This document shows, piece by piece, positions 4,781 to 23,787 of a stretch of DNA of 62,239 nt. The DNA is taken from positions 1 to 62,239 of the forward strand of contig CAMCFJ010000014.1 of assembly GCA_945874105.1 (NCBI GenBank). Direction: 5' to 3'. The DNA comes from Candidatus Nitrotoga sp. CP45. GTDB lineage: Bacteria > Pseudomonadota > Gammaproteobacteria > Burkholderiales > Gallionellaceae. The stretch's first letter is position 1. Each line of letters starts with the position of its first letter. The notes below the pieces were generated by a model. It was given only the letters and a program-made list of their open reading frames with translations. It had not been told where the DNA came from and searched no databases. The translations under genes and the position numbers were made by a program.

Positions 4781-4882
4781 ATGTTTGAGAATGTGACTAC
4801 CGGCCAAGTTCTTTTGATGTACGTATGTATTTTTGGGTTTATTTTTGGTATGGCCGCAATCTTATTTAAAAAGAATTCTTAA
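4781..4882 (+). CDS. Tiny single-helix membrane protein (33 aa) at the head of the respiratory region
   Basis: The ATG at 4781 is preceded by a strong AGGAGG Shine-Dalgarno about 7 bases upstream, so this start is preferred over a longer in-frame one at 4694 that has no such signal. The product has a short polar N-terminus, one hydrophobic helix (VLLMYVCIFGFIFGMAAILF) and a KKNS tail. I do not recognise a family. Its size and context recall the small one-helix subunits (CcoQ/CcoM-like) of cbb3 oxidases. Two further tiny proteins of this kind occur at 14393 and 23677. Confidence 0.7.
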   Translation: MFENVTTGQVLLMYVCIFGFIFGMAAILFKKNS

Positions 4883-5015
4883 AAAACAAGGCTAAATAAT
4901 ACTGCGAGTAGCGGAAATATTGTTTTTGGATGCCTTCCGAAAGCATGGTGTGTCTTTCACCTAAAGTTGTTAGGGGAGGATTAAATTGAAGAATTTCAAG
5001 AAATAAGGGGGGGAA

Positions 5016-5795
5016 ATGCGCAAATCTATATCCATGTTGTCGTCATGGCTTACAATAATAGCTATCACTGTATTGGTATCGGGAACGGCCGCTTCTGCGG
5101 AAGCTGGAAAAGTTAGTGCGAATCCCGCTAACGGCAAGGTCATATTTACCCAGGGAAAAGGGGATGTTCCTGCTTGTCTATCCTGTCATGGAGAAAATGC
5201 ATTAGGTAATGATGCCATGGGCGCGCCCCGCCTAGCCAATGTTGGTTACGTTTATCTCGTTAAACAACTCACTAATTTTGCTGCGGACAAGAGAGTTCCC
5301 TCTGGGCTGGGCGCGGTAATGAACGGATTTGCCAAGGCGTTGAGCGAGCAAGATCGCCGTGATGTGGCTGCATTTGTAGATAGTTTGCCCAGAAAGTTTG
5401 AGCCGTCTGATTTGAAAGCTCTTAAAGCAGAGGGGCAGCAAGTCGGTAAGTCGCATTTGGGGAAGCTTCTGGTTCATAGTGGGGTAAAGGGTAAGGTAGC
5501 CTCTTGTTACTCATGCCATGGGTTTAACGGGCGCGGTGCTGATCCTATCTTTCCAGCAATTGGTAATCAGAAATATGTATATTTGGTTAACCAATTGAAA
5601 AGTTGGCGTGATGGCACAAGAAATAATGATCCGGTAGTTGGTGGGGTTCCAATGATGCAAGCGGTGGCGAAAACGCTTACAGATGACGACATTTATAATG
5701 TTGCTGCATATTTGACTTCTGCTCCGCCAGTTAATGTACGGGACGGCCTTCTTATTGATAATCAAACCGTTTTGAAGGAAATTGTAGTTAGATAG
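5016..5795 (+). CDS. Periplasmic dihaem cytochrome c, c4-like
   Basis: A 259-residue exported protein with a signal peptide (hydrophobic about 9-25, cleavage near ASA-EA). It has two class I cytochrome c domains with haem motifs CLSCH (54-58) and CYSCH (164-168). The candidate axial methionines are in GAVMNGFAK and GVPMMQAVA. Two tandem cytochrome c domains of about 100 residues are typical of cytochrome c4, which carries electrons between quinol-oxidising complexes and C-family oxidases. An AAGGGGGG ribosome site precedes the ATG. A strong terminator follows at once, so this gene and the preceding tiny protein form their own transcription unit. Confidence 0.88.
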   Translation: MRKSISMLSSWLTIIAITVLVSGTAASAEAGKVSANPANGKVIFTQGKGDVPACLSCHGENALGNDAMGAPRLANVGYVYLVKQLTNFAADKRVPSGLGAVMNGFAKALSEQDRRDVAAFVDSLPRKFEPSDLKALKAEGQQVGKSHLGKLLVHSGVKGKVASCYSCHGFNGRGADPIFPAIGNQKYVYLVNQLKSWRDGTRNNDPVVGGVPMMQAVAKTLTDDDIYNVAAYLTSAPPVNVRDGLLIDNQTVLKEIVVR

Positions 5796-5830
5796 GAATT
5801 CTTGGTTATTGAATTTTAGATTTTGTTTGT

Positions 5831-5869
5831 AAAATCCCCGCGTCGAGTTGTTCCGGACGCGGGGATTTT
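5831..5869 (+). terminator. Rho-independent terminator after the dihaem cytochrome gene
   Basis: A perfect 14-bp stem (5831-5844 with 5856-5869) encloses an 11-base loop. The stem core is GC-rich (ATCCCCGCGTC) and the 3' arm runs directly into TTTTA. The A-tract/T-tract symmetry means it could also work on the minus strand. Confidence 0.88.
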
Positions 5870-5911
5870 ACTTATTGGAAATGCACATTAAGTAGTTGGG
5901 AGTAATTCGGC

Positions 5912-6508
5912 ATGGCAATTAGCAATATGAAGCTTGGAGAAAAATTGCTATTTGGGGGTTTTGCACTGATTGGTATTATGGCTTTTGCCAGTTGGCTGGT
6001 GCTAGAAGTTGTCAGGTCACGTTTAGATAAGCCGATGTACCCAGTGCTCCAGTATAATTTTTCCACAGAAGGCTTGCGCGGGTCAGAAATATTTCGTACA
6101 GCGGGATGCACTATTTGCCACCGCGCAATGCGCAACGGTACAAATATGGGGCTGGTTCTCGACGGGATCGGTTCCAAGCGCACTCTAGAATACCTTAATA
6201 AATTTTTAATTGATCCAGAATCGACGTATCCAGGAACGACGATGGATCATGGCCCTTCTAAAGGAGCTGCTTTCGTAGCAAAATTGCCGCAAGCGGATTT
6301 GCAAGCGATTGCTGTGTTTCTTTCAGAGTTACGAGCGAACCCAGGATCTAATGCGTCTCGACTTCCACCAGTGGGTGGGGAATCAAAGTTTATTGATGAG
6401 ATGGTCAGGATGTGGGCGCCAGACAGTTGGAAATCGGAGTATAAGGATGTGCGTGAAGAAGTGAAATCAAAAGCGAAAGAGAATAAGCATGATACAGGAA
6501 CCAAATGA
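5912..6508 (+). CDS. Membrane-anchored monohaem cytochrome c, oxidase-cluster component
   Basis: A 198-residue protein with one N-terminal membrane helix (about 12-33) and a periplasmic cytochrome c domain with one haem site, CTICH (66-70). The helix-then-haem layout, with a conserved GLVLDGIGSKRT stretch after the haem site, resembles CcoO-type or CcoP-half cytochromes rather than soluble carriers. The charged C-terminus (EEVKSKAKENKHD) is long and lysine-rich. The gene overlaps the next one by 20 bases, which argues for translational coupling and a shared complex. No family name more specific than membrane cytochrome c is justified. Confidence 0.82.
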   Translation: MAISNMKLGEKLLFGGFALIGIMAFASWLVLEVVRSRLDKPMYPVLQYNFSTEGLRGSEIFRTAGCTICHRAMRNGTNMGLVLDGIGSKRTLEYLNKFLIDPESTYPGTTMDHGPSKGAAFVAKLPQADLQAIAVFLSELRANPGSNASRLPPVGGESKFIDEMVRMWAPDSWKSEYKDVREEVKSKAKENKHDTGTK

Positions 6509-7001
6509 GCCTTGGGCTCAGGATAAAGAATATACTAAATATACATTGTGGTTTATCTACGCATGCATCATTTACAGCATAATTGGTTTTTCCTGGGGGG
6601 CGTTAATGGGCGGGGTTCCCACCTTTAGACATTTTGTTAATAGCGGGATACCCGGACACAGGCTCGTTTTAGGGCATACCCATATTAATTTGCTGGGGTG
6701 GGTGGAAATGGCTATTTTCGGCGCAGTATATTATCTTATTCCACGATTAGTGCGACGTTCCATCTATAGTCTACGCTTGGTCAAGATTCATTTTTGGATG
6801 CATAATTTGGGCTTGCTGGGTGTCGTAGTTTTCTTCAGCGCTGCGGGGCTGATAGGTACTTTTATTGATGATGACGGAGAGTTGGCGGCATCACGTTTTA
6901 TGTCACTCTCAGGAATTTTCGGTAGTGTGGTTTTATTGGCTAACATTATCTGGGGATATAACATATATCGAACTTGTAATGGATGGAATCGACCCAAGTG
7001 A
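6489..7001 (+). CDS. Half-length CcoN-like haem-copper oxidase subunit I relative (170 aa)
   Basis: A four-helix membrane protein that resembles only the C-terminal third of cbb3 oxidase subunit I. The segment GHTHINLLGWVEMAIFG followed by YYLIPRL and YSLRLVKIHFW parallels the CcoN helix bearing the H-x-H pair, where the two histidines bind haems b3 and b. The CuB histidines, the cross-linked tyrosine and the first haem b histidine are absent, so it cannot be a complete oxidase. It may bind one haem b, or act as an electron-transfer or assembly subunit. It overlaps both neighbours, by 20 and 19 bases. A relative lies at 23038-23556 on the other strand. Confidence 0.8.
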   Translation: MIQEPNEPWAQDKEYTKYTLWFIYACIIYSIIGFSWGALMGGVPTFRHFVNSGIPGHRLVLGHTHINLLGWVEMAIFGAVYYLIPRLVRRSIYSLRLVKIHFWMHNLGLLGVVVFFSAAGLIGTFIDDDGELAASRFMSLSGIFGSVVLLANIIWGYNIYRTCNGWNRPK

Positions 7002-7537
7002 GCACAAGAATATTATGGCTGTTCGTCGCCTCATGCCTACTTAGTGGCTGTGGCGAACAGTTTTCTACATGGAGCATCGGGGGGGCTTCAATGGGAGTGT
7101 TGCAGAAGGGTATGCTCGCGCCTAGTTTGCCCACCAAAACATTGGCGGATGTCGGCGGAGACATGAGCAAAATGACGACATATCGTCAGCCAGATGCCCG
7201 CATGTACCAATACTCATTGGATAAGGCGTTGGCGCTCGGCAAGCCTATCGTCCTGGAGTTTGCCACACCTGGCCATTGCACTGTATGCGATGGCCAGTTG
7301 CAAATAATGAAAGCACTATTGGAAAAATATCAAACTCAGGTACTTTTTTTGCATATGGATCAATACCAAAATCCGCAAGCATTTAAGGCATATCGCGTGA
7401 TGGGTGATCCTTGGACCTTCTTTATAAATGATAAAGGTGTTGTTAGCGGCGTTCAGCCAGGACGCATGTTGCATGGTGAAATGGAAGCGGGAATTACCAA
7501 GATTCTCAAGGCTGGAACAGAAAGACACGCGGGTTAA
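6983..7537 (+). CDS. Thioredoxin-like lipoprotein
   Basis: A 184-residue protein with a lipoprotein signal ending in LLSGC (Cys23), followed by a thioredoxin-fold domain. The redox motif is C99-T-V-C102 in FATPGHCTVCDG, and a later WTFFINDKGVVSG segment fits the cis-proline and C-terminal part of the fold. Such proteins in oxidase clusters usually reduce cytochrome thiols or help deliver copper (TlpA/ScoI-like roles); which one applies here is not visible. The gene overlaps the half-CcoN gene by 19 bases and is followed 6 bases later by another membrane protein gene. Confidence 0.8.
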   Translation: MESTQVSTRILWLFVASCLLSGCGEQFSTWSIGGASMGVLQKGMLAPSLPTKTLADVGGDMSKMTTYRQPDARMYQYSLDKALALGKPIVLEFATPGHCTVCDGQLQIMKALLEKYQTQVLFLHMDQYQNPQAFKAYRVMGDPWTFFINDKGVVSGVQPGRMLHGEMEAGITKILKAGTERHAG

Positions 7538-7543
7538 TATAAG

Positions 7544-7993
7544 ATGAGCGATACGCGCTTCGTTTTAGTGCAAGACCACAAAGGCATGATGTGGGATGTG
7601 CTGTTGTATGTCCCCACAGTGATAGCTTTACTGTCGATGGTAGTCAAATTCTGGTATAGCGGAGATGTCAGTTTGGCATATTTGTTCTCGTTTTTGGCCT
7701 GTTTCTTTTTTATCGCGGGTGCCAACCGAATATTGAAAACCAGGTTAATGTTACTGCCTACCGCGCCTATCGCAATTGAAATAGGTAAGCAGGTAATACA
7801 AATTATTATGCGCAACGGAGAGCAAGTGGAGTTGGTGAAAGATTTGCGAGTTTACGCGGATTATTCAGGCCGTACGTTTGGTCTGGCAGGTCTGGATAAA
7901 TTAGGCCAGCGCATGCAATTTGTATTTCATAAAGGACAGTTTTCCAGCATAAAAGATTACCAAGCAATTCAGGAAATGCTTAAAACTAGCTAG
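7544..7993 (+). CDS. Unknown two-helix membrane protein
   Basis: A 149-residue protein with two adjacent membrane helices (about 17-36 and 43-61) and a cytoplasmic C-terminal domain of about 80 residues. That domain contains alternating hydrophobic residues (IAIEIGKQVIQIIMRNGEQV, TFGLAGLDKLGQRMQFVF), reminiscent of a small beta-rich PH-like or DUF domain. I do not recognise the family. It is the last gene of the 5912-7993 unit, placed 6 bases after the thioredoxin-like gene and followed by a strong terminator, so a role with the same respiratory module is likely. Confidence 0.65.
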   Translation: MSDTRFVLVQDHKGMMWDVLLYVPTVIALLSMVVKFWYSGDVSLAYLFSFLACFFFIAGANRILKTRLMLLPTAPIAIEIGKQVIQIIMRNGEQVELVKDLRVYADYSGRTFGLAGLDKLGQRMQFVFHKGQFSSIKDYQAIQEMLKTS

Positions 7994-8004
7994 GCATCTA
8001 TATT

Positions 8005-8054
8005 AAAAAACAGGGGAATTTCTAATGATTTCATTAGAAATTCCCCTGTTTTTT
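8005..8054 (+). terminator. Very strong rho-independent terminator
   Basis: An almost perfect 24-bp inverted repeat (8005-8028 with 8031-8054) starts with AAAAAACAGGGGAATTTC and ends with its complement, running into six Ts. It closes the 5912-7993 unit and by symmetry could also stop transcription from the right. Confidence 0.9.
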
Positions 8055-10633: not shown

Positions 10634-10915
10634 ATGCAAAGACAGTCAATACCATCTAGGTCTTTTTGGATTATTATTGTTGCGGGATTTGTAACAGGCA
10701 TGGGTAATGGTAGCGTGTTCGGAGCCGCCCTCATGTGTTGGATGGGGCGTGCGGGCATTGAAGATTGGGGTGGAGTGGGCTCTGGTTCATATATCCCTAC
10801 AACGTTTAATGGTCTTATGACTTTTTGGATGCTTGCGTTTGGCTTTGCGTTTACTCTAATGCTGGCACTCGCGCTAAAGCGACATGATACGATTGAAAAT
10901 GGACGTCATGCTTAA
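10634..10915 (+). CDS. Unknown two-helix membrane protein, first gene of the main oxidase operon
   Basis: A 93-residue protein with two hydrophobic helices (about 10-36 and 63-82), joined by a loop rich in glycine and tryptophan (CWMGRAGIEDWGGVGSGS). A purine-rich GGGGAGGGAATG stretch lies 8-20 bases before the ATG. No family was recognised. Its place 77 bases upstream of another small membrane protein and then the CcoN-like gene suggests it belongs to the same complex or its assembly. Confidence 0.65.
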   Translation: MQRQSIPSRSFWIIIVAGFVTGMGNGSVFGAALMCWMGRAGIEDWGGVGSGSYIPTTFNGLMTFWMLAFGFAFTLMLALALKRHDTIENGRHA

Positions 10916-10992: not shown

Positions 10993-11196
10993 ATGCTTGT
11001 AATATTTGCGGGTACATTCTGTATGCTCTTGGCGTTTTCTAGTATGTGGTTATCGTGGTATGTATTAATGCCGCACGCAAAAATTCATTTGCCGGATGGT
11101 ACAGATGCATTAGGTGGGACAATCGGCGGTACGGTAGGCGACATAATTAAAGAAGAACTATCTTCGGCCGCACCGCATAAAACGTCAACAAAATAA
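10993..11196 (+). CDS. Small single-helix protein with a glycine-rich tail
   Basis: A 67-residue protein with one N-terminal membrane helix (about 3-26) and a hydrophilic tail containing DGTDALGGTIGGTVGDIIKEE. A very good AAAGGAGGGG ribosome site lies a few bases upstream. No family was recognised. Position directly before the CcoN-like gene makes it a candidate small subunit of the oxidase. Confidence 0.65.
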   Translation: MLVIFAGTFCMLLAFSSMWLSWYVLMPHAKIHLPDGTDALGGTIGGTVGDIIKEELSSAAPHKTSTK

Positions 11197-11275: not shown

Positions 11276-12685
11276 ATGATTCTTAAGTATTTATTCGGTA
11301 AAAATGAGGCTATCCCGGTCGGTTCGGCGGCGATTTTCTTTGGTTTTTCTTCCATAATGTGGTTCGTGATCGGAACTGGGTTGGGGTCATTCAACGCGGC
11401 TAAGCTTGCTTTCCCTGATTTTGTAACGGGGACGGAAATGTTTGCCTTCGGCCACATGCGCCAGGTGCATGTATTGGCGGTAATTTTCGGCTGGATTTCG
11501 ATGGCGTTCGCAATGGCCATGATGTACATCACTCCGATACTGGGGAACACCAGGCTGTGGTCAGAGAAGCTTGGTTTGTGGAATTGCATGATGTGGAATA
11601 TTTCTCTACTTTTGGGTCTGTCCCTGTTGTGGATGGGGGTGACCTCCGGGCGTGAATATTCTGACTTCCCTTGGCCGCTGGATCTTGCTGTTGCTGCATT
11701 TATAACCATTCCATTGGCAGTTAACGTATGGATGACCATAATAAAGCGCCGTACTCAAGGTATTTATACGACCAACTGGTTTTTTGCAGCCGCAACTTTT
11801 ATGTTGATCATCGTATTTTTGGTGGGAAATCTGCCAGAGTACTTCCACCTTACTGGTCTGACAGAAGCTTACATGACTTGGTGGTTTGCGCATAACGTTC
11901 TTGGACTGTGGATTACTCCGGTAGCTGCAGCAATCGCCTACTACGTTATCCCAAAGGTGACAGGTAATCCTTTGTATTCCCACCGAATAGGCCACTTGCA
12001 TTTTTGGTCAATCGTCGTGTTTTATTCCACTCCAGCTGCGCACCATTTGATGTCGGCTCCTTTGCCTGAGTGGCTAAAGTCTTTTGCTTCAGTGGAAGGT
12101 GTGTTGATTCTGGTCCCGGCGATTGCATTCGTGTCGAACATACTTTTGACCATGCAGGGTAAGTGGAATATGTTTGTCGAAAACCTTGAAGTGCGCTTTA
12201 CCGTAGTTGGTGTATTGCTGGCGATCCCGCTCAACATGCAGGGTGGTTTCCAGCAAACACGCTCGATCAACTGGTACATTCATGGTACAGGTTGGATGGT
12301 GGCGCATGCGCATCTCGCGTTGCTGGGGTTCTCGACGTTTCTCGAGGCAGCTGCCGTATACTTGGGATTGCAAACATTGATGAAGCGCAAGCTGTACTCT
12401 CTGACTTTAGGAAATCTGCATTTCTGGTTGTTGTTGATTGGATTCAGTACCTATTGGATATCAATGACGATTGCCGGATTGATTCAGGGTGCCGGTAAAA
12501 TATATGAAGTGCCATACATTGATGTCGTTATTGCTGAGCATCCTTATATGATCGCTCGTTGGTTAGGCGGAACCATGGTGTTTTCTTCAACCCTTATTTG
12601 GTTATATAACATGTGGATGACTGCGCGTGAAGGTACTGTTATTCCGGCCGGACGTATGCCACACGAATTGGCATATGAGCGTTAA
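11276..12685 (+). CDS. CcoN-like C-family haem-copper oxygen reductase, catalytic subunit I
   Basis: A 469-residue, roughly 12-helix protein. Counting against the cbb3 structure, as remembered, gives haem b ligand His65 (RQVHVLAVIF), CuB ligands His206 (AHNVLG) and His256/His257 (AAHHLMS), Tyr250 at His206+44, exactly the place of the cross-linked tyrosine, and His344/His346 (AHAHLALLG) for haems b3 and b. The tyrosine and the lack of NorB-type glutamates around the metal site argue for oxygen rather than nitric oxide reduction. Residue Gln322 stands where CcoN normally has the conserved glutamate. The ATG at 11276 with AAGGAG upstream is chosen over a longer frame from 11228. Confidence 0.9.
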   Translation: MILKYLFGKNEAIPVGSAAIFFGFSSIMWFVIGTGLGSFNAAKLAFPDFVTGTEMFAFGHMRQVHVLAVIFGWISMAFAMAMMYITPILGNTRLWSEKLGLWNCMMWNISLLLGLSLLWMGVTSGREYSDFPWPLDLAVAAFITIPLAVNVWMTIIKRRTQGIYTTNWFFAAATFMLIIVFLVGNLPEYFHLTGLTEAYMTWWFAHNVLGLWITPVAAAIAYYVIPKVTGNPLYSHRIGHLHFWSIVVFYSTPAAHHLMSAPLPEWLKSFASVEGVLILVPAIAFVSNILLTMQGKWNMFVENLEVRFTVVGVLLAIPLNMQGGFQQTRSINWYIHGTGWMVAHAHLALLGFSTFLEAAAVYLGLQTLMKRKLYSLTLGNLHFWLLLIGFSTYWISMTIAGLIQGAGKIYEVPYIDVVIAEHPYMIARWLGGTMVFSSTLIWLYNMWMTAREGTVIPAGRMPHELAYER

Positions 12686-12721: not shown

Positions 12722-13684
12722 ATGAATTTTAGAGAGTATAGAATCGGTTCAAGAATGTTTGGTGCAGCATTCGCAATATCAATGAGTATAACCCTGCTGT
12801 TTCCAAGTTTTGATCTTGCGGCGTCAGTCGTCTCAGAGGTTGGCTTGGATAAGCAGCTGACGTCAGGGTGGGATTCCGGGTGGCAGCTATCAGATCCGTT
12901 ACTGAACGGATTGAACAAGCCATTGAAAGTGTTGCTCAGGAAAGATCCGAAAAGTGGCGCGCCGATGGAGCCTGTGTATGCATATGTATATCCTGCAGGA
13001 ACGACATTGCCGAATGGCGTGAATCACACTGCCAACTTGGGTCACGGCGTTGAGGAGCTTAGTGTCAAGGAGGGCCGCATAAAAGAAGCAAGAAAAGAAG
13101 ATGGTGTTGTTTTCCTGATCAAGAAGAGTGATAAGTTGCTGAATTTTGAGGATAAGCCACTTGCTTATATGGAAAATGCGACAGCCACAAAAGGCTGGAC
13201 TCCAAGTGAAGTTTTAAAACAAGCAGCAGATTCAGACATATTGCACGCCGGATCTGGAAAAACCATGTTTGTACGAGAAGGTTGTTGGTGGTGTCATACA
13301 TTATTGCCAGAACAGACACAAGATTGGCAAGTATTTGGCGCTCCTCCTATGCTTGGTGATTTCAATGGCGAATCACCGACAGCATTTGGGTCAGATCGTA
13401 AGGGACCGGATTTGCTGCACGTTGGTTCACGCAATGCGTCTAGAGAGTGGATGATGCTGCATTTCTTTAATCCACGCTTAGTGCAACCGCATTCCATCAT
13501 GCCGCGTTTTGATTATTTATGGGGCGAGGTCGACGCTGATGGCAAAAAAATTGATTTCAAAAAATGGCGTTCTGAGTACGATGAGTATCGGGAAGGTAAA
13601 ATCACTACTCCTCCAGACGTGCCTATGTACGCTAAGGATAGCGAAATTCGGAACTTGATTGATTTTGTAATAAATCTGAAATAA
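12722..13684 (+). CDS. CcoO-like monohaem cytochrome c subunit with an extra N-terminal domain
   Basis: A 320-residue membrane-anchored cytochrome c (helix about 12-34). The C-terminal part matches CcoO: haem site C188WWCH192 preceded by MFVREG, then the SDRKGPDLLHVGSR stretch, and the axial Met260 in HSIMPRFDYLW. CcoO usually has its haem site at about residue 60-75. Here roughly 110 additional residues (about 45-160) lie between the helix and the haem, with no motif I recognise. The gene begins 36 bases after the CcoN-like gene with a GGGGAG site, so the two are the conserved oxidase core. Confidence 0.87.
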   Translation: MNFREYRIGSRMFGAAFAISMSITLLFPSFDLAASVVSEVGLDKQLTSGWDSGWQLSDPLLNGLNKPLKVLLRKDPKSGAPMEPVYAYVYPAGTTLPNGVNHTANLGHGVEELSVKEGRIKEARKEDGVVFLIKKSDKLLNFEDKPLAYMENATATKGWTPSEVLKQAADSDILHAGSGKTMFVREGCWWCHTLLPEQTQDWQVFGAPPMLGDFNGESPTAFGSDRKGPDLLHVGSRNASREWMMLHFFNPRLVQPHSIMPRFDYLWGEVDADGKKIDFKKWRSEYDEYREGKITTPPDVPMYAKDSEIRNLIDFVINLK

Positions 13685-13699
13685 TTTAAGGGGGACGAT

Positions 13700-15737: not shown

Positions 15738-16204
15738 GTAAATTGTCTCCTTTGACCAGAGCCCGATTTTTCAACGGGGTGGTGGCAGTTATCATGGGTT
15801 GTGCGCTGAATTACTTTGGTGACCGCTTACTTGGAGTAAAAATCGAGTTATTTCGCGGCATTCTTGACTTCAATGCCCTGTGGGTCATCGATATGCTAGT
15901 ACTACCTTTTTTTGTCGGTGTATTGGTTGCTGTTATTTTTGGACTTGGTGGCAAATGGCTGTGTTACTTCCCGCCACTTATAGTTAAATCGATTGGTTAC
16001 TTGGAAAGCACCTATATAAATGCAGTTCCGGAAGATACATCGCTAATTCCTTTTGGCATGTGGGCTTTATTTGTGACTGTAGTAATGACTTCGGCAGCCT
16101 TCGGCGGGGTCATGGGTGAAATCATGGTGAAAGGAACATACGGGAGAAGTCCCCGAGATATTTTATATAAGCAACGTGCCAGTAATAGAGACGGTGATAT
16201 TTAG
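15734..16204 (+). CDS. Unknown polytopic membrane protein
   Basis: A 156-residue protein with about four hydrophobic segments, among them ARFFNGVVAVIMGCALNYFG, VIDMLVLPFFVGVLVAVIFG and a C-terminal one around FGMWALFVTVVMTSAAFGG. No family was recognised. ATGA coupling to the cytochrome upstream, and an immediate TAG-ATG junction to the FGE-like gene downstream, place it in the same assembly line of genes. Confidence 0.65.
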   Translation: MSKLSPLTRARFFNGVVAVIMGCALNYFGDRLLGVKIELFRGILDFNALWVIDMLVLPFFVGVLVAVIFGLGGKWLCYFPPLIVKSIGYLESTYINAVPEDTSLIPFGMWALFVTVVMTSAAFGGVMGEIMVKGTYGRSPRDILYKQRASNRDGDI

Positions 16205-17269
16205 ATGACAGTTACTTCTGCGAACAGAAAAACTGTGCTTCCTGTTGCAGATTATGCGCGTCGCAAACGTTACTTGTCGGCTACCTTTGTAATTTGCTTT
16301 GTCTTGTTGGCAATTGGGATTACCTTGTATGTGGTGAATCAGGGGTTCGATCGTATGGGAGAAATGCGCACACGCGCAACCTACGAATTGAAAGATGAAT
16401 CATCCCATATTCGTGCTGCTGGTGAGGATTTAGTATTGCATAGTATGCATGAGACAGAGAAAAAACATACGGTAGGATATAGCGCTAAAGAAATTGAAAG
16501 CTTGCTATCCAAAGAGGAGTGGCTAGAGCTAGAGAGTATGGTGTTGATCCCTGAGGGCGCCTTTTCGATGGGTACAGATTTAGAACGTGCAGATGCACAA
16601 AATCGTCCGAAGCATACAGTTAAATTACCCGCCTACTGGATAGACAAATATCCTGTAACTAATGCGCAATATGCTAAATTTGTAGTCGCTACTTCACGTC
16701 GTCCGCCGCTGAACTGGAAAAAAGGAAAAATTCCTTCAGGCGAAGCGTTGCGCCCAGTTACTATGGTCTCTTGGTACGATGCAACAGCTTATGCTAAGTG
16801 GTCAGGCAAACGACTTCCTTCTGAAGCGGAATGGGAAAAGTCCGGGCGTGGAACTGATGGAAGGCGCTGGCCGTGGGGTAATAAGATGGAACCGGAGCGG
16901 TTGAACACTTATTACAATGTGGGATCTACAACCAATGTGAATGCTTATCCAAACGGCGTTAGCCCCTATGGAGTAATGGATATGGCGGGTAACGTAAATG
17001 AGTGGACAGCGGATGATTTTGCACCTTATCCTGGATCTGACGCGCCGTCAGATTTGTTTAAAGGAAAAATTGTGCAGGCGACAAATACAAAAGAGGTTGA
17101 GCTTGTGCCGACTGGGGGGAAATACAAGGTATTGCGTGGTGGCTCATGGAAGGGGGATCCGTTCTCCTCTTCGGTATTTCATCGAAATTTCGCTTTTGCA
17201 AACTATGCATCCGATTTTTTCGGGTTCCGCTGTGCAAGTAATCCCGGGGTGAAGGACAAAAGACGGTGA
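16205..17269 (+). CDS. Membrane-anchored FGE-sulfatase-domain protein without catalytic cysteines
   Basis: A 354-residue protein with an N-terminal membrane helix (about 24-45), a linker, and a formylglycine-generating-enzyme (SUMF1-like) domain from about residue 112. It starts MVLIPEGAFSMGTD and contains VTNAQYAKFV, RLPSEAEWEKSGRG, GVMDMAGNVNEWTADD and YKVLRGGSWKGDPF, ending in FFGFRC. True FGEs carry two copper-binding cysteines in the segment after the RGGSW motif. Here that segment reads SSSVFHRNFAF and has none, so catalysis as an FGE is unlikely. Related cysteine-free domains occur in NirV and in c-type cytochrome clusters. It may be a structural subunit or chaperone in the periplasm. 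The gene overlaps the next by GTGA. Confidence 0.88.
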   Translation: MTVTSANRKTVLPVADYARRKRYLSATFVICFVLLAIGITLYVVNQGFDRMGEMRTRATYELKDESSHIRAAGEDLVLHSMHETEKKHTVGYSAKEIESLLSKEEWLELESMVLIPEGAFSMGTDLERADAQNRPKHTVKLPAYWIDKYPVTNAQYAKFVVATSRRPPLNWKKGKIPSGEALRPVTMVSWYDATAYAKWSGKRLPSEAEWEKSGRGTDGRRWPWGNKMEPERLNTYYNVGSTTNVNAYPNGVSPYGVMDMAGNVNEWTADDFAPYPGSDAPSDLFKGKIVQATNTKEVELVPTGGKYKVLRGGSWKGDPFSSSVFHRNFAFANYASDFFGFRCASNPGVKDKRR

Positions 17270-17520
17270 GAGTGCTCAAAATTTTGTGGCAGCTGGGAAT
17301 GGTTCTTGGTCTCTCATTGTCTTCGATAAAAATGAGCTATGCAGTGGATAGCTACCGTTTCCTTCACGTGCATATTGATACGCTCTGGTATATTTTTTTA
17401 TTCCTGCTGGGTGTAATTTTTGTTCCCTTTATTCTGTTGGCAGTGTTGACATGGCACTACGCGGAAAGCAAAACCGATCCGAAAGAGCAGCAGACAATTT
17501 CAGTCGAGAGTGAGAAATGA
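17266..17520 (+). CDS. Small exported one-helix protein
   Basis: An 84-residue protein starting at a GTG that overlaps the stop of the FGE-like gene. It has a signal peptide-like N-terminus ending near SYAVDS, then a histidine-containing segment (FLHVHIDTLWY), one membrane helix (about 44-66) and a polar tail. No family was recognised. It is coupled by ATGA to the next gene. Confidence 0.65.
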   Translation: MRVLKILWQLGMVLGLSLSSIKMSYAVDSYRFLHVHIDTLWYIFLFLLGVIFVPFILLAVLTWHYAESKTDPKEQQTISVESEK

Positions 17521-17903
17521 TGGCGAGTGTAAGGGGTGGCTCCAATCCAAGTTTAATAGCGTGCTGGCTGGTTACAGCGTTGTTGTTTTTATTTTGCGCG
17601 ATACCAGCGCTAGCTGATGATAACCAACAGAAGGGCGATAGCGCTAAGGTGATGGAGGCGTTTGAACAGCAAGCTAGCAAGATTAATATAGATAAGCCCT
17701 CAACCATACAAAAAAAGCATTTGACTATGTTTTTATTGGGCGTGCCATTGTTAATCCTGCTTCTAATTACTGGGGCGCTGGGCATCGCAATGGGGATATA
17801 TGGTAAGCAAGTATTTATGCTGCATATGATTTCTGCCGGGCTAACTATCACGCTGGCTTTTGTTCACGCTATTGTGGGCGTTATTTGGTTTTATCCCTTT
17901 TAA
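17517..17903 (+). CDS. Unknown membrane protein with N-terminal signal, end of the oxidase operon
   Basis: A 128-residue protein with a signal peptide-like first helix (about 12-34, ALADD), a charged periplasmic segment, and two C-terminal helices (TMFLLGVPLLILLLITGALG and TITLAFVHAIVGVIWF) with a histidine in the last. No family was recognised. It is the last of the tightly coupled series that began at 14974. About 320 bases without a gene follow. Confidence 0.65.
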   Translation: MMASVRGGSNPSLIACWLVTALLFLFCAIPALADDNQQKGDSAKVMEAFEQQASKINIDKPSTIQKKHLTMFLLGVPLLILLLITGALGIAMGIYGKQVFMLHMISAGLTITLAFVHAIVGVIWFYPF

Positions 17904-18223: not shown

Positions 18224-20839
18224 ATGCTGGTGAAAGAGTCACAATCATTAATTTCAAAGCGTAGTTACTGGCCGCTGGCAGTACTGTATGGATTATTCGG
18301 TCTGACTAGCGTGGCATACGAGGTATTGTGGGCGCGCATACTTTCTTTGCAATTCGGTGTGAGTATTTTTGCGGTGGTGCTGACCGTCGCCGCATTTATG
18401 GGGGGGTTGGGAGCGGGAAGTTTATTTGCGGTACGCCGGGCTTCCCAAATCAAAAGGCCTTTGTTGTTGCTGGCTGCATTGGAAGGTGGCATTGCTGTTT
18501 ACGCCCTACTCCTGCCCCTGATTCTGCAAATGACGTCGGCGGGAATGGAAGGCGCTGCGGCTCAACTCTCGCTATTTCAATGGTATGGTCTTATTGCTAG
18601 TGTTGCATTGTGTTTGCTGTTGTTCCCGGCTTTCATCATGGGGGCAGGGTTTCCGTTGATTTTAGCATCCCTGGGAAACAGGCCTGAGCAACTGGGGAAG
18701 ATTTACGGTTTAAATACGCTAGGTGCTGCTTGTGGCGCACTGTTACCACTTTGGTTGTTGCCAGCCTTGGGTTGGGTCTCAGCGGTCAGAGTGGTTGCCG
18801 CGATTGGCTGTTTGGGAGTAGTTACGCTGTTGCTACTTTCATCGCGGTACACCACAGCGCAGGTTACCGAGAAAAGCATCAGGGCAAGTCGACCGCGTTT
18901 AGCTTTTCTTTTCGCCTATGCCGGGATCGGTGCGGCAAGTCTGACGTTGCAAATAGCGTGGACGCGGTTATTCGGCATGGTGATGCTACGCACCGAGTAT
19001 GTGCTGACAGTGATTCTGGCGTCATTTCTGTTGGGCATCGGTATAGGCAGCTTGATCGCGCCACGCCAGCACAGGCAAGCGTGGTTTGTAATCTTGCCCA
19101 TTGCTGCCGGAGGATTTACCGCATTAAGTTTATGGTTGCTGCCTGCACTATCGGCATGGGTAGAGCGAGCTGAATTTGCTTCTTTATTTGAAGCATTAAG
19201 AATGCAAGGGTTATTACTCGCGCTGATAACTCTGCCAGTTACACTGGCACTTGGAGCTTGGTTGCCGTTGTTAAATAGCCGTTCGAATGGCGGCGGGGTA
19301 TGGTTATACGGAGCTAATTCACTGGGCGCCGCTCTCGGCGCGGTAGTTGCAGGGGTGGTACTGATTCCGGTTTGGGGCAGCGCTGCTACGGTGGTGGTGG
19401 CAGCTTCGGCGTTGTTGATTCTAGGTTTAACTTGGGCGCAGTCGCGTACCGCATGGCTTGCTGTACCGTTATTTTTAATGGCAGCGTGGCCAGTTGTAAA
19501 GTTACCGCCAGTCAATATGCTATTGCCGCAGGCGCAAGCAGGAAGCAGGGATTTATATTTTTACGAAGACGCCATTTCGATGACTCACGTGGTTGAGCAA
19601 CAAGACGGGCAACGTGTGTTGCTGACCGATTTGCAGAGAATGGATGCTTCAACTGATCCGACAGCGGTGTTCGTGCAATCCAATCAAGCGCGTCTTCCAT
19701 TGCTCTTGCATGAACAGCCGCGCTCGGTACTATTTCTCGGATTGGGTACCGGAATTTCCGTGGCTGGTTCTCTGGCGTTTCCTGATTTAGAGCGTAGTGC
19801 TGTTGAGTTGTCACAAGGCGCGATTAATTCTGCAGCAAGCTTATTTGCCCCATTAAATCGCGACGTTCTGCGTCAAACCAAAGTGGAACGTGACGACGTA
19901 CGGCATTTTCTAAGCGCGAGTCGGGATCAATACGACGTCATAATTGGCGACGTGTTTCATCCGGATTTGGCAGGTTCAAGTTCTTTATTATCAGTGCAGC
20001 AATTTCAGCGCGTGCGTAATCGCCTAAGCGAAAATGGACTATTTGTTCAGTGGTTGGCGCTCAATCAATTCGACAATAAATCGTTAAACGTGATTTTTAA
20101 CAGCTTTCGGCTGGCTTTTCCAGATGCGCAAATATTTCTTGATGGAATGCATTTAGCCTTGGTTGGCCCACGGCAGAAGTTTATGGGCGCGCAGGGGTTG
20201 CTGCATAATTTGCAGCGTATGCCCTTGGGGCAACAGGATGAGGCGACGGCTGGCGAGGGGGGGTGGACATGGCTGGGACGCTATTGGGGGCCAATGCCGG
20301 CTAGTCGGGAACAGGTGCAAGACGAGTGGTCACCAGTGATTGAGTTTCGTCTGCCACGCGCGCGCTATGCGGGCGAATTAGATGTGGCAAAATTATTGCA
20401 GCTTTTGCTGAAAACCAGACCGAAAATGGAAGCCGCTGCAAATTTGCTTGGCATTCGTGACAACGATAAAGATGCATTTGAACGCGCCTACGTAGCAAGC
20501 GAGCTGATGACGCGTAGTTGGCTTGCGGCTGCGCGTGGCGCAACGCAACAGGCTAATCAGTTGACCCACTTGGCGTATAAGGCTAATGCAAAAGATCGCT
20601 GGATTGCGTATGCGTTGGCTGATAATATGTTTTCATCTTTAGCGCAGGCGCGCGAGCATGGTTTGAGCGAGAAAGAGGCGTTGCAGAAAATTTTGCGCCT
20701 TAATCCATATCACGTAGAAGCGGTGCGTGCATTGTGGCGAATTGAGCGTAAAGCTGGTGATGCACACGCGGAGTTGAGCCGTATGCACTTGCTGGAGCTG
20801 AGCCCGCTCGACCGTGAAGCAAATGCAACAGGGAATTAA
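18224..20839 (+). CDS. Fused polytopic membrane protein with spermidine-synthase-like domain
   Basis: An 871-residue protein. The first ~430 residues hold about 12 membrane helices with glycine-rich pairs (GGLGAGSLFAVRR and LLGIGIGSLIAPRQ) typical of membrane spermidine-synthase fusions. From about residue 440 a soluble domain resembles the class I methyltransferase fold of spermidine synthases: SVLFLGLGTGISVAG near residue 500, ERDDVRHFL near 554 and YDVIIGDVFHPD near 570. The last ~150 residues are helical and TPR-like. Polyamine synthesis is not implied, since many such fusions have unknown substrates. It lies 7 bases before the CcoG-like gene, so it belongs to that operon. Confidence 0.85.
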   Translation: MLVKESQSLISKRSYWPLAVLYGLFGLTSVAYEVLWARILSLQFGVSIFAVVLTVAAFMGGLGAGSLFAVRRASQIKRPLLLLAALEGGIAVYALLLPLILQMTSAGMEGAAAQLSLFQWYGLIASVALCLLLFPAFIMGAGFPLILASLGNRPEQLGKIYGLNTLGAACGALLPLWLLPALGWVSAVRVVAAIGCLGVVTLLLLSSRYTTAQVTEKSIRASRPRLAFLFAYAGIGAASLTLQIAWTRLFGMVMLRTEYVLTVILASFLLGIGIGSLIAPRQHRQAWFVILPIAAGGFTALSLWLLPALSAWVERAEFASLFEALRMQGLLLALITLPVTLALGAWLPLLNSRSNGGGVWLYGANSLGAALGAVVAGVVLIPVWGSAATVVVAASALLILGLTWAQSRTAWLAVPLFLMAAWPVVKLPPVNMLLPQAQAGSRDLYFYEDAISMTHVVEQQDGQRVLLTDLQRMDASTDPTAVFVQSNQARLPLLLHEQPRSVLFLGLGTGISVAGSLAFPDLERSAVELSQGAINSAASLFAPLNRDVLRQTKVERDDVRHFLSASRDQYDVIIGDVFHPDLAGSSSLLSVQQFQRVRNRLSENGLFVQWLALNQFDNKSLNVIFNSFRLAFPDAQIFLDGMHLALVGPRQKFMGAQGLLHNLQRMPLGQQDEATAGEGGWTWLGRYWGPMPASREQVQDEWSPVIEFRLPRARYAGELDVAKLLQLLLKTRPKMEAAANLLGIRDNDKDAFERAYVASELMTRSWLAAARGATQQANQLTHLAYKANAKDRWIAYALADNMFSSLAQAREHGLSEKEALQKILRLNPYHVEAVRALWRIERKAGDAHAELSRMHLLELSPLDREANATGN

Positions 20840-20846
20840 CTAAATA

Positions 20847-22187
20847 ATGGCCAGCGGCGTCAAATATAAATCCATTTCCAGCATCCCGGTCAAGGTTATC
20901 GGCACGGCCGTAGCTTCCAAGTCAGTCCATTCCGAATTCCGTTGGAAGCGACGGTTGGTGCAGATGCTGGTCTTGATTCTTGTGGTACTCATTCCGGCTA
21001 GCGGCCTATTCCGTATTGATCCGGCAGCGGCCGCTTTTGTTGTGCTGGATAGGCAGATCTGGCTGGCTGACTTTTCCTTGGTAACCGGGGCATGGCTTTT
21101 TCTGGCGAGTAGTTTGGTGTTGCTGTACTCGACTGCAGGTACGGTGTTTTGCGGTTGGGCTTGTCCTCAGAATACTATGGCCGAGTGGGCTAATAATCTT
21201 ACGCACAAACTATTAGGTAAGCATGCCGAAGTAAGTTTAACCGGCGAAGCACCGCGCGTGGCGGGTGCCAAAAATAAGATCATGAATTGGACGCTGCTTG
21301 GGGTTGCATTTTTGGGGGCGGCTATGTTTTTTGCGCTAATCCCATTATTTTATTTCTATCCGCCAAGTGTGGTGTGGTCTTTTGTAATATTGCAGGAAAA
21401 TACCAAGTTGGCGGGATCGCTGCATTGGATTTACGCGGTATGTGTCGTTATCGTTTTCATAGACATTGCGGTAATAAGACATTTCTGGTGCCGCTATGCC
21501 TGCATTTACAGGGTTTGGATGCATTCGTTTAAAACCAAGCAGACCTTGCATATAGCATACGATGCCAGTCGCAGCGATGAATGCGCCAAGTGTAATTATT
21601 GTGTCACTTCTTGTTTTATCGATCTGGATCCGCGCAAAACCGATATTTATGACAGCTGTATCAATTGCGGCGATTGTGTGGATGCGTGTAATCGCTTGCA
21701 TAACAAACAAGGCGTCCCGGGACTATTACGTTTTAATATGCTTGAGCGCACGAATAAAAGTGCAAATAAATTTCGTGGTGTCGCAATTTCTTTGTTTGCC
21801 AGAATGGGCTGGACGACTCCATTCGTGGTATTGGGTGCGGCGATGTTTGTTTGGGGAATATGGTCATATCAACCTTATCATGTAGCAGTGGGTAATGCGG
21901 ATATTCAGCAAGGTCACACGGTTCAAGAATATCGCATTGCGCTTTCCAATAAACTGTATCACCCAGCGGATCTACAAGTGCGTGTGTTAGGTTTGCCGCC
22001 AGGTAGTTACCAGCTTAGCGCTAAGGACATTAAATTATCACCGGTCGGGCGAGAATCGCTCATGCTTTCCATCGCGCAGGATTTGCCACGAGGCTTATAT
22101 TCTGTGGTGGTGGAAGTCACCGCAGGTGATACCTGGAAGGGGCGATTCCCTGTTCAACATTTTTCCGAACAAAGGAGAAAGTTATGA
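20847..22187 (+). CDS. ccoG: CcoG/FixG-like ferredoxin-type membrane protein
   Basis: A 446-residue protein with about five membrane helices. It carries the CcoG motif FCGWACPQ (Cys102 and Cys106), CRYAC near 214, and two ferredoxin-type clusters, CAKCNYCVTSC (about 243) and CINCGDCVDAC (about 271), then a C-terminal immunoglobulin-like periplasmic domain. CcoG proteins reduce copper for CuB insertion into cbb3 oxidases. Unusually, the last cysteine of each cluster motif is not followed by proline, which most ferredoxins and CcoG proteins have. ATGA coupling joins it to the next gene. The family call is firm, but the branch is divergent. Confidence 0.9.
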   Translation: MASGVKYKSISSIPVKVIGTAVASKSVHSEFRWKRRLVQMLVLILVVLIPASGLFRIDPAAAAFVVLDRQIWLADFSLVTGAWLFLASSLVLLYSTAGTVFCGWACPQNTMAEWANNLTHKLLGKHAEVSLTGEAPRVAGAKNKIMNWTLLGVAFLGAAMFFALIPLFYFYPPSVVWSFVILQENTKLAGSLHWIYAVCVVIVFIDIAVIRHFWCRYACIYRVWMHSFKTKQTLHIAYDASRSDECAKCNYCVTSCFIDLDPRKTDIYDSCINCGDCVDACNRLHNKQGVPGLLRFNMLERTNKSANKFRGVAISLFARMGWTTPFVVLGAAMFVWGIWSYQPYHVAVGNADIQQGHTVQEYRIALSNKLYHPADLQVRVLGLPPGSYQLSAKDIKLSPVGRESLMLSIAQDLPRGLYSVVVEVTAGDTWKGRFPVQHFSEQRRKL

Positions 22188-22615
22188 TAGCCAACGATAT
22201 TGATGAAAAAGCTCAAGGTTTATCGAAAGTAGATAAGCCGCGTTGGGGCGAGAAGCCGGATGATCATTTTGGCTATGCTTCTGATGAAGAACGTATGGCC
22301 AAACGTGGACTTGAAGATTGGGAGCTGGTAGAAACCATTCCGGAATCACAAAAAAGCATACCCTATTGGTTTGTCGGGGTGACTGTTGCGGTGTTACTGG
22401 TTGCGGTGGGTTTGAGTTTCCCTTTTTGGGGTCTCCGTCCGGGTGATGAGCGCCCTTGGGTGGACTGGGGGTTTATCATAGCTTTATTTTATGTTGCCGC
22501 CGGAAGCGCTTTTGTTCGTTTCATGGTTAATTTATATGGATCGTCAATGGGCGGCACGCTGGATTCAGATAAAAATAATAAAGAACAATCCCATGAATTT
22601 AATGCAGAAAAATAA
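22184..22615 (+). CDS. Two-helix protein, short paralogue of 13700-14365
   Basis: A 143-residue protein with a charged cytoplasmic N-terminus of about 58 residues, a helix (about 60-81) ending in PFWGLRP, only a short GDER linker, and PWVDWGFIIALFYVAAG as a second helix, followed by a polar tail. The paired WGxRP and PW-D-GF-I-LFY landmarks match those of the protein at 13700, which has a large loop in between. No database family was recognised. It lies between the CcoG-like and FixH-like genes, a place often held by CcoH in other genomes. Confidence 0.68.
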   Translation: MIANDIDEKAQGLSKVDKPRWGEKPDDHFGYASDEERMAKRGLEDWELVETIPESQKSIPYWFVGVTVAVLLVAVGLSFPFWGLRPGDERPWVDWGFIIALFYVAAGSAFVRFMVNLYGSSMGGTLDSDKNNKEQSHEFNAEK

Positions 22616-23024
22616 TTTTCATACCTTGGTTCACCGACCGTTGGGGACGTATGTCAAATACATTAAGCTGTTACCCTTGGTTCTGCTAGCAGCATGTGGT
22701 GGCGGAGATCAAGTTGCTGATACGCAACCGCAAAAATGGCAGGGTGCGGAGGTACGAGTTGAATCCAGGCCCAGTCCACCGCGTCCTGGAGTAAACGAGT
22801 TTTTGGTGATAGTGACTGGTGAACGTGGACCGATCCATGACATTATGGTTTCGATTCGTACTGACGACCAAGATCAATGGATACAGGCAATACAAGATGG
22901 GGAGGTGGGTGTTTACCGCAGGGCGGCGAAAGTTGCTCCAGGCACCAGATCCGTGTTACAGGTGCAAATAAAACGCAACGGCGCTGAAGGAGTTCTGCGC
23001 TTCCCGTTGAACTTATCGCCTTAG
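22593..23024 (+). CDS. FixH/YtkA-like lipoprotein
   Basis: The start at 22593 overlaps the upstream stop, and another ATG lies at 22602; the longer frame to 22491 lacks support. The 143-residue product has a lipoprotein signal (LLPLVLLAACGGG, the modified cysteine being in LAAC) and a single beta-rich domain (GVNEFLVIVTGERGPIHDI, GVYRRAAKVAPGTRSVLQVQ) typical of the YtkA/FixH fold. FixH/CcoH-type proteins act in cbb3 oxidase copper handling and assembly. The canonical FixH has a membrane helix instead of a lipid anchor. It is the last gene of the 18224-23024 operon and converges with the half-CcoN gene. Confidence 0.72.
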   Translation: MNLMQKNNFHTLVHRPLGTYVKYIKLLPLVLLAACGGGDQVADTQPQKWQGAEVRVESRPSPPRPGVNEFLVIVTGERGPIHDIMVSIRTDDQDQWIQAIQDGEVGVYRRAAKVAPGTRSVLQVQIKRNGAEGVLRFPLNLSP

Positions 23025-23037
23025 CAATAAACAGTTC

Positions 23038-23556
23038 TTAAGGATTCCGGTCTTTATTTTTAAGTGTGAATAAGACGTTAGCAAGATAGATGCAAAAACC
23101 CGTCGCCATGGTCATACCTGCGCCGGCTACGATGGGTCCATAGTAGCGGTGCACTTGTGCCATTGCTTGCAGGTTATTGTCCAGTAATAAATTTCCTTCC
23201 ACGATACCAAATACCACTTGCGTAGTATAAAAATAAAACACCCCAACAGTTGTCCACCAAAACGAATGGTTTATCAAGCGCAAAGAGTAAATTGCTTTTC
23301 CGCTAATGATGGGCAGCAAATAATACATGGTTCCCATTGCCAATATTACTAGCCCGCCGATTAAGTTTATGTGTGCATGTGCCAAGGGATCTATCATGTG
23401 TCCAGGGCCACCGTAAGGGCTGCCGATAGAATCCAGCCAGGTTCGTATGGATGGAATCACCTGCAACATGCCATGCATTGCACCGAAAAAAAAAGAAATT
23501 GTGGAAACCACCAAGAACTTAATTAAGTGGGGGTATTCAGTGTTGTTTAAATGCAT
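23038..23556 (-). CDS. Second half-length CcoN-like subunit relative (172 aa)
   Basis: A four-helix protein resembling the C-terminal part of CcoN: AHAHINLIGGLVILAMGTMY with the H-x-H pair, then YYLLPI and YSLRLINHSFWW. It lacks the CuB ligands and the catalytic tyrosine. It shares this architecture with the protein at 6489-7001 and has an extra N-terminal segment with histidines (GPGHMIDPLAHAH). It could bind haem b or be an assembly or regulatory subunit. It lies on the opposite strand from the main operons, downstream of a tiny one-helix gene, with a perfect palindrome between the two. Confidence 0.8.
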   Translation of the reverse strand: MHLNNTEYPHLIKFLVVSTISFFFGAMHGMLQVIPSIRTWLDSIGSPYGGPGHMIDPLAHAHINLIGGLVILAMGTMYYLLPIISGKAIYSLRLINHSFWWTTVGVFYFYTTQVVFGIVEGNLLLDNNLQAMAQVHRYYGPIVAGAGMTMATGFCIYLANVLFTLKNKDRNP

Positions 23557-23587
23557 GGGAAGTGTGGGTATGATGCTTCAATAACGA

Positions 23588-23613
23588 AAGCACGGCCATA
23601 TATGGCCGTGCTT
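23588..23613. repeat. Perfect 26-base palindrome between the tiny gene and the second half-CcoN gene
   Basis: The 13-base arm AAGCACGGCCATA is followed directly by its exact complement. It lies 32 bases upstream of the half-CcoN start (minus strand). It may form a hairpin in the RNA (attenuator or stabiliser) or bind a dimeric regulator as DNA. It is not followed by a T-run, so simple termination is less likely. Confidence 0.75.
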
Positions 23614-23676
23614 ATGCGAATAACAGGTTAACGATTTTTATCGTTTTGAGAATTTTTAATAGAAGCTGGGTAATAT

Positions 23677-23787
23677 TTATTTATTACCTTTTTCACCTTC
23701 TATAATCCGTTGAATACCTAAGCCAGCCAAGGTTGTGGAGATGATAATGCCAACGCCGAAAATCACTATGGGAACCAATACTTCCAT
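23677..23787 (-). CDS. Tiny single-helix membrane protein (36 aa)
   Basis: On the minus strand an ATG at 23787 is preceded by AGAAGGAGT with a good gap. The product is 36 residues with one hydrophobic helix (VLVPIVIFGVGIIISTTLAG) and a charged tail ending EGEKGNK. The strong ribosome site and the partnership with the half-CcoN gene support a real gene. It resembles the small helix subunits of cbb3 oxidases in type, not in a recognised family. Confidence 0.68.
   Translation of the reverse strand: MEVLVPIVIFGVGIIISTTLAGLGIQRIIEGEKGNK

Follow-up and report, generated by a model that had tools for sequence, protein, structure and literature searches.

The Gallionellaceae, the family to which the nitrite oxidisers of Candidatus Nitrotoga belong, are reported to have a second type of the cbb3 oxidase subunit CcoN beside the ordinary one. 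This “distal” cbb3 type is a subtree of the phylogeny of Ducluzeau, Ouchane and Nitschke (2008), and the label has been used for Sideroxydans ES-1, the Zetaproteobacteria and the Gallionellaceae (PMC8788666, PMC7029218, PMC10734462). The two cbb3 clusters of ES-1 are said in the same sources to differ in subunit composition, with expression of the distal cbb3 at about three times that of the proximal one. The cbb3 oxidase of Ferrovum strain JA12 is described as having subunits I and II without subunit III, and co-localised c-type cytochromes were proposed to replace the latter (PMC4725956). In the Nitrotoga fabula paper, the oxidase is called simply a high-affinity cbb3. Here, we describe an oxidase gene cluster in a stretch of 62,239 nucleotides from Candidatus Nitrotoga sp. 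CP45 (“the window”; assembly GCA_945874105.1, contig CAMCFJ010000014.1). The cluster, at positions 4781–23823, likely encodes a divergent C-family oxygen reductase that lacks CcoP, with cytochromes that would replace it and core membrane proteins that would mostly be extra subunits.

The window oxidase very probably belongs to the distal cbb3 clade, to which we matched it through the description of ES-1 and through its distribution. Like the distal type, it occurs in the Gallionellaceae as a second kind of CcoN, and like the JA12 oxidase it has subunits I and II without III. The accessible literature on distal cbb3 describes neither a set of ~20 genes nor the short, free-standing relatives of CcoN discussed below (“one-third-CcoN” proteins), and the main text of the JA12 account, in its available part, mentions neither the small membrane proteins nor the one-third-CcoN proteins. 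Three named Ferrovum loci (L064, L068 and L071) carry the same core as the window. No description of the accessory gene set was found in the literature searched, most subscription papers and supplements being beyond reach. The oxidase itself, if it is distal cbb3, is therefore already known; the large, constant accessory set appears to be new.

We assign 25 genes to the system, 23 of them on one strand. A preliminary description, made from the sequence alone, had placed a CcoN-like and a CcoO-like gene in a region of ~19 kb made up mostly of genes for small membrane proteins or cytochromes of unrecognised family, many of them joined by 4-base overlaps, together with two WGxRP proteins and three one-helix micro-proteins. 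All of these are present. CcoO has one CxxCH motif, and 14 genes fall below every Pfam cut-off; those recognised by profiles encode a diheme cytochrome, two monoheme cytochromes, two short COX1-like proteins, a thioredoxin-like protein, CcoN, CcoO, and SUMF1, spermidine-synthase-like and CcoG proteins. Overlaps of −4 nt occur at five junctions (14974/15249, 15249/15734, 16205/17266, 17266/17517 and 20847/22184), and there are further tight junctions, two of −20 and −19 nt and one of 0 nt. The assembly factors named in the same description fared unevenly. A CcoG is present but divergent, at 115 bits against a cut-off of 317 for TIGR02745; the CcoS-like protein does match FixS, but weakly and below the cut-off (E 0.006); the supposed FixH-like factor has no Pfam or NCBIfam match and looks like a small lipoprotein. 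Likewise, the two “half-CcoN” proteins exist as short COX1-like proteins, but each corresponds to one-third of CcoN.

The catalytic subunit retains what an oxygen reductase should need. Homologues favour ATG 11276 as its start over TTG 11228. Residues 22–451 of 469 align with the canonical (proximal) CcoN of Pseudomonas stutzeri (3mk7; E 1.4e-62, 215 bits), and the two systems (3mk7/5djq) share the metal ligands, the cross-link tyrosine and the CcoO heme domain. The equivalents of 3mk7 H60, H207, H257, H258, H345, H347 and Y251 are all present in the window CcoN. These six histidines and the tyrosine are invariant in 101/101 distal-type sequences (80 named loci, 20 fetched stretches and the window; one genome may be counted more than once) and in 17/17 canonical reference CcoN. 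We take the histidines to be the ligands of heme b, heme b3 and CuB, and the tyrosine, which precedes the His-His pair and is Y250 in the window protein (Y251 in 3mk7), to be the cross-linked one. A His-Tyr cross-link with the tyrosine on a helix other than the histidine's has been described (PMC8780969). Because all ligands and the tyrosine are invariant in both the distal and the canonical sets, the window CcoN should reduce O2.

At the same time, the distal type is far from canonical cbb3. The window CcoN is only 27–31% identical to the 17 canonical sequences, while the lowest pairwise identities are ~53% among canonical and ~72% among distal CcoN. At the positions of 3mk7 S240, Y317 and E323, all 101 distal-type sequences have Gly, Ala and Gln, respectively, whereas canonical CcoN have S in 17/17, Y in 17/17, and E in 14/17 with D in 3/17. 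We take these canonical residues to belong to the proton route or a metal site of canonical cbb3. The proton route of distal-type CcoN may thus differ from the canonical one. In a CcoN tree the distal type forms a separate clade on a branch of ~2.5 substitutions per site; its printed support is 0.478 after re-rooting, and we use the long branch alone, the rooting being unreliable (the canonical set is printed as non-monophyletic).

A second departure from canonical cbb3 concerns CcoP. In each of the 17 canonical ccoN loci, CcoO is present and followed downstream by an ORF of 283–443 aa with 2–3 CxxCH motifs, which we took as CcoP by its place, size and heme motifs. By contrast, the best match to TIGR00782 (CcoP) in the window genome scores 32.7 bits against a cut-off of 180, and neither a CuA-type domain nor a copper ATPase was found among the cluster proteins scanned, one copper ATPase scoring above the cut-off on another contig of the genome. 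The preliminary description had likewise found no CcoP or CcoI. Two membrane-anchored monoheme cytochromes, cytc1 (5912) and cytc2 (15249), are related to each other (hhalign 99.3%). Searches of solved structures with cytc2 gave weak CcoO matches only, and the gene was found in all 71 named loci that include its expected place (71/71). This constancy within the core, together with its weak likeness to CcoO, makes cytc2 the best candidate in the cluster for a CcoP substitute.

The case for a single system rests on the conservation of the gene set. We compared the best 80 of 189 relatives of the CcoN-like gene (“named loci”), which come from Nitrotoga, Gallionella, Sideroxydans, Ferrovum, and beta- and gammaproteobacterial metagenome-assembled genomes (MAGs); CcoN of named Candidatus Nitrotoga contigs is 93–98% identical to that of the window. 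Counting only loci in which a gene's expected place lies inside the locus, the core genes (named by their start positions where they have no other name) are nearly constant: 10634 in 74/74, 10993 in 75/77, CcoO in 77/77, WGxRP-1 in 74/74, 14393 in 73/73, 14610 in 73/73 and 14974 in 72/72. Farther downstream, the figures are 64/69 for 15734, 62/65 for the gene with the SUMF1/formylglycine-generating-enzyme (FGE) domain, 59/62 for 17266, 58/61 for 17517, 56/59 for the spermidine-synthase-like gene and 53/57 for CcoG. The upstream genes (positions 4781–7993, “module A”) are less constant, with the cytc4-like gene present in 50/56 loci and one-third-CcoN in 42/59. In 72 of the 80 named loci, the core genes that are present follow the order of the window and lie on one strand; of the eight exceptions, four shift the small lipoprotein alone, one is rearranged (L040) and three have a short version (L042, L050 and L053). 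This order persists at median identities of 49–64% for core accessory genes and 84% for CcoN. Much the same set is found in ten loci of families f39 and f59, which belong to another class of the phylum and show 75–77% CcoN identity, the cytc4-like gene being matched in 3/10. Since a distal cbb3 has been reported for the Zetaproteobacteria, we provisionally assign f39 and f59 to that group. The small genes are thus conserved with CcoN, the point on which the preliminary description had staked its proposal.

Conserved order could reflect passive synteny. In the two genomes of family f102 that we examined (G745 and G825), however, the cluster is split: a run of eight genes, beginning with 15734 and ending with the lipoprotein, has kept its order at a different location. 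In G745, a single-contig genome, this location is ~0.7 Mb away; in G825 it is on a separate contig. The linkage is therefore not passive synteny. Loss of the FGE-to-CcoG genes in f102 had been considered and was rejected when these genes were found at the second locus. In the f102 loci L154 and L158, the core is joined and module A genes are interleaved with it. Elsewhere, module A shifts as a block, lying upstream on the same strand, inverted, among core genes or ~10 kb off. One-third-CcoN is present in 12/12 genomes chosen for distal CcoN, including those where the two are not adjacent; in eight f121 genomes it lies ~10 kb from CcoN on the other strand (seven genomes) or on another contig (one), an arrangement that resembles that of Ferrovum. 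In two loci of genus g121 (f39), the core ends after 14393 (L147) or 17517 (L161), with several kb following, and this may be another split cluster.

Occurrence of distal CcoN was assessed in samples of 398 genomes of the phylum, 399 of the order and 158 of the family, and co-occurrence in the first of these. In the phylum sample, distal CcoN was found in 42 genomes, WGxRP-1 in 43 (40 shared; two of the 43, G366 and G420, are weak matches) and one-third-CcoN scoring >260 bits in 45 (39 shared); neither WGxRP-1 nor one-third-CcoN was found in families without distal CcoN. The 11 mismatch genomes (G285, G305, G317, G333, G355, G366, G399, G411, G414, G420 and G426) are all from f39, 57 to 95% complete and in 120 to 470 contigs. 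Distal CcoN is not a general type, being found in 42/398 genomes of the phylum sample and 19/399 of the order sample. Within the family, 46/158 genomes have it, with matches at E 5e-106 or better; a canonical CcoN accompanies it in at least 16 of the 46. In the 17 canonical ccoN loci, the orphan genes of the cluster have no match at E 0.001 (17/17); the genes that do match are CcoG (15/17), the cytc4-like query (weakly, 13/17) and the spermidine-synthase-like gene (weakly, once, in L184).

The gene set includes repeated modules, among them the two one-third-CcoN proteins. Four helices are predicted for the first, which matches COX1 over its last third and, more weakly, 3mk7 over the first and second thirds. 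The two proteins are related to each other (hhalign 97.5%) and to the last third of CcoN (98.3% and 95.6%). The one-third-CcoN is probably old, and no recent copy of the neighbouring CcoN, because its profile scores distal and canonical CcoN about equally. An alignment of 36 sequences of the first protein shows four invariant histidines, H63, H65, H101 and H105. Heme binding is plausible because two of these, H63 and H65, fall on the HxH heme ligands of CcoN. Support for the other repeated family is weaker: WGxRP-1 and WGxRP-2 match at 89.5% (hhalign), and the WGxRP-1 profile has weak second matches, one of which, in G345, is about as far from CcoN as WGxRP-2 would be. In another genome, an additional partial match to WGxRP-1, of 46.7 bits (G205:C27:10525-10848), lies on a contig other than that of the oxidase cluster. 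Profile comparison detected no relationship between the micro-proteins at 4781 and 14393.

The distal-type CcoN is the only oxygen reductase found in the window genome (2.5 Mb, listed as 100% complete) by searches for COX1 and CydA; alternative oxidase was not searched. There are three COX1 matches, i.e., CcoN and the two one-third-CcoN proteins, and no CydA. Genes for bd oxidase are reported in 15.4% of the nitrite oxidisers of the family (PMC10734462); among the genus genomes, we checked for bd oxidase in the window genome alone. The COX1 pattern recurs in 13 of the 19 genomes of the genus, each with a single full COX1 and two one-third proteins. G097 has the full gene and one one-third protein, G104 a partial gene and both, and G102 (71% complete) has no COX1-family protein.

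Several observations weigh against this account. Three genus genomes (G105, G106 and G112), whose lifestyle may differ, lack a distal CcoN match and encode other members of the COX1 family. In the phylum sample, 37 of the 42 distal-CcoN positives come from one family (f39), meaning that Fisher p-values overstate the case. One-third-CcoN was not found in 17 of the 59 loci with room for it, and two of the ten f39/f59 loci (L147 and L161, one genus) lack the downstream core at this place. CcoN and CcoO score far below the cut-offs of their equivalogs (229 bits against 583 for TIGR00780; 68 bits against 201 for TIGR00781). Lastly, the name distal cbb3 is one that we infer.

How might such an oxidase work? 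Electrons from nitrite would reach the periplasm and pass to the diheme cytochrome (5016) and then to the monoheme cytc2 and cytc1. These two would take the place of CcoP and hand electrons on to the heme of CcoO, from which they would travel by way of heme b to the heme b3-CuB site of CcoN, where O2 would be reduced. Most orphan core membrane proteins would be extra subunits, while CcoG, the thioredoxin-like lipoprotein, and the SUMF1-domain and spermidine-synthase-like proteins are more likely assembly or modification factors. In this scheme, we infer the subunit status, the electron route, heme in the one-third-CcoN proteins, the heme content and the proton route from sequence comparison. 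A bolder version, which we regard as speculative and doubtful, is a giant C-family oxidase of >12 subunits, with monoheme cytochromes for CcoP and another proton route, in which the one-third-CcoN proteins would be heme-b subunits resembling free repeats of the 12-helix fold, hinting at an origin by triplication.

There are several alternatives to a multi-subunit oxidase. First, the oxidase could consist of CcoN, CcoO and cytc2 alone, with the other genes forming a dedicated assembly and maturation line outside the final complex. This is possible, if on balance improbable: CcoG, the thioredoxin-like lipoprotein, the weak CcoS-like protein and the SUMF1 and spermidine-synthase domains are all encoded in the cluster, and part of the gene set can sit at a distant locus; but many small membrane proteins without an enzymatic domain would fit subunits better, as would the 10634 protein, which is as constant as CcoO (80/80). 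Second, module A could be a separate membrane electron-transfer unit, made of a one-third-CcoN heme protein and cytc1, that is coupled to the oxidase yet outside it. We think this rather unlikely; module A does move as a block, but its one-third-CcoN occurs in 39/42 genomes with distal CcoN and its genes are interleaved with the core in f102. Third, the divergent sequence and the nitrogen-cycle organism could suggest a nitric oxide reductase or another superfamily member that does not reduce oxygen, which is highly improbable, as NorB (the cytochrome c-dependent nitric oxide reductase of the same superfamily) matches the window CcoN at 27 bits (1.8e-5) against 215 for CcoN, the oxygen-reductase tyrosine is present in 101/101, and this is the sole full-length COX1 of an aerobe without detected CydA. 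Finally, an ordinary cbb3 cluster with unrelated neighbours would account for the CcoN, CcoO and CcoG homologues but is scarcely credible, failing the synteny and split-cluster tests, with the set conserved in a second class of the phylum and no orphan match in 17/17 canonical clusters. We therefore favour a divergent, CcoP-less oxidase with extra subunits; the specialised C-family oxidase first proposed is borne out, with a large co-inherited accessory set. The suggested tuning to iron finds no support: members of the clade come from a nitrite oxidiser, from Ferrovum and from gammaproteobacterial MAGs, and in ES-1 distal ccoNO is reported to be up on thiosulfate and proximal ccoNO up on Fe(II)-citrate (PMC8788666).

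Table 1. Genes assigned to the oxidase system in the window. Unless stated otherwise, occurrence refers to the 80 named loci.
Positions	Strand	Predicted product	Evidence	Occurrence
4781..4882	+	One-helix micro-protein, 33 aa from ATG 4781 (module A)	One predicted helix	34/80 (tblastn, short query)
5016..5795	+	Exported diheme c-type cytochrome, cytochrome c4-like (module A)	Two CxxCH, hydrophobic N-terminus; Cytochrom_C 9.1e-20	60/80
5912..6508	+	Membrane-anchored monoheme cytochrome c, cytc1 (module A)	One CxxCH, one helix	59/80
6489..7001	+	Four-helix one-third-CcoN protein no. 1 (module A)	COX1 1.5e-14 over profile 303-406	50/80
6983..7537	+	Lipoprotein with thioredoxin-like domain and CxxC (module A)	Thioredoxin_3 9.6e-6, barely above cut-off	51/80
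7544..7993	+	Two-helix membrane protein, no family assigned (module A)		52/80
10634..10915	+	Two-helix membrane protein (core)		80/80
10993..11196	+	Small one-helix membrane protein (core)		78/80
11276..12685	+	CcoN-like catalytic subunit, C-family, distal type	Ligands and tyrosine 101/101; 27-31% to 17 canonical CcoN	
12722..13684	+	CcoO-like monoheme subunit, long N-terminal stretch ahead of heme domain	FixO 4.8e-18 (residues 178-269); one CxxCH	80/80
13700..14365	+	WGxRP protein no. 1 (WGxRP-1), orphan family	Two helices	78/80
14393..14527	+	One-helix micro-protein, 44 aa		74/80
14610..14930	+	Two-helix membrane protein, orphan		73/80
14974..15252	+	One-helix protein, weakly CcoS/FixS-like	FixS E 0.006, below cut-off	73/80
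15249..15737	+	Membrane-anchored monoheme cytochrome c, cytc2, candidate CcoP replacement	One CxxCH, helix; weak FixO match	73/80
15734..16204	+	Three-helix membrane protein, orphan		66/80
16205..17269	+	Membrane-anchored SUMF1/FGE-domain protein	PF03781 4.2e-56	67/80
17266..17520	+	Small membrane protein, orphan		63/80
17517..17903	+	Three-helix membrane protein, orphan		60/80
18224..20839	+	Membrane protein fused to spermidine-synthase-like domain	NF037959 6.5e-26, over cut-off	58/80
20847..22187	+	Divergent CcoG	TIGR02745 3.4e-33 (115 bits, cut-off 317)	56/80
22184..22615	+	WGxRP protein no. 2 (WGxRP-2)	hhalign 89.5% to WGxRP-1	53/80
22605..23024	+	Small lipoprotein	No family match	24/80 (expected place never well inside); 15/20 fetched loci
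23038..23556	-	One-third-CcoN protein no. 2	COX1 1.8e-10, over cut-off	10/20 fetched loci; 13 genus genomes besides the window's
23677..23823	-	One-helix micro-protein		4/80 (most end before it); 6/20 fetched loci

Orthologue sets excluded sequences of <70% of the window protein length or with a stop within the match, and are smaller than the presence counts in Table 1; the set for the micro-protein at 4781 retained 9 rows, including the window. Alignment A1 holds the window and 35 of 36 listed references, and A2 the window and 36 references, from 40 listed of 48.

Among the likely assembly factors, the thioredoxin-like lipoprotein (6983) is probably a thiol or copper chaperone, and we take CcoG to be a copper-related assembly factor. 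Formylglycine-generating enzyme needs a cysteine pair. The SUMF1/FGE-domain protein has two cysteines in all; the pair is seemingly missing, and the protein may have another function. In the spermidine-synthase-like protein, the domain is joined to a transporter-like membrane part, and the gene stands beside the oxidase in 58 of the named loci. A search of the Protein Data Bank with WGxRP-1 found no relative among solved structures, and PADLOC, run on three proteins, found nothing. FNR-type boxes with one mismatch occur four times in the window against 2.9 expected, and none lies within 4781–23823.

Two other genes lie inside the cluster. A large membrane protein, weakly mannosyltransferase-like (8929–10425, minus strand; PMT_2 E 0.0017, below the cut-off), occurs in 40/80 named loci, and a three-helix membrane protein (8194–8580, plus strand) in 7/80 (L006–L012, i.e., six Nitrotoga and the Gallionellales UBA7399) and in the genus loci L156 and L157. 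About 30 kb from the oxidase, an Alternative complex III cluster (52295–59565, plus strand) encodes a multiheme cytochrome, molybdopterin-type and FeS subunits, NrfD, ActD (PF11821), a monoheme cytochrome and one ORF without a family match; it is a candidate electron partner.

This oxidase type is the sole full-length COX1 found in 13/19 genus genomes, and it is also present in Ferrovum and in another class, yet it is under-described. Should the products of the conserved orphan genes be subunits, this would be a C-family oxidase of unusual size that is still to be described, and the oxygen affinity, nitrite tolerance and energy yield of textbook cbb3 may not apply to it. With the free-standing one-third-CcoN proteins, hypotheses on how the heme-copper oxidase fold arose could be put to a direct test. 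The accessory set accompanies the oxidase through many bacteria, iron oxidisers included, and this points to respiratory machinery larger than that of textbook cbb3.

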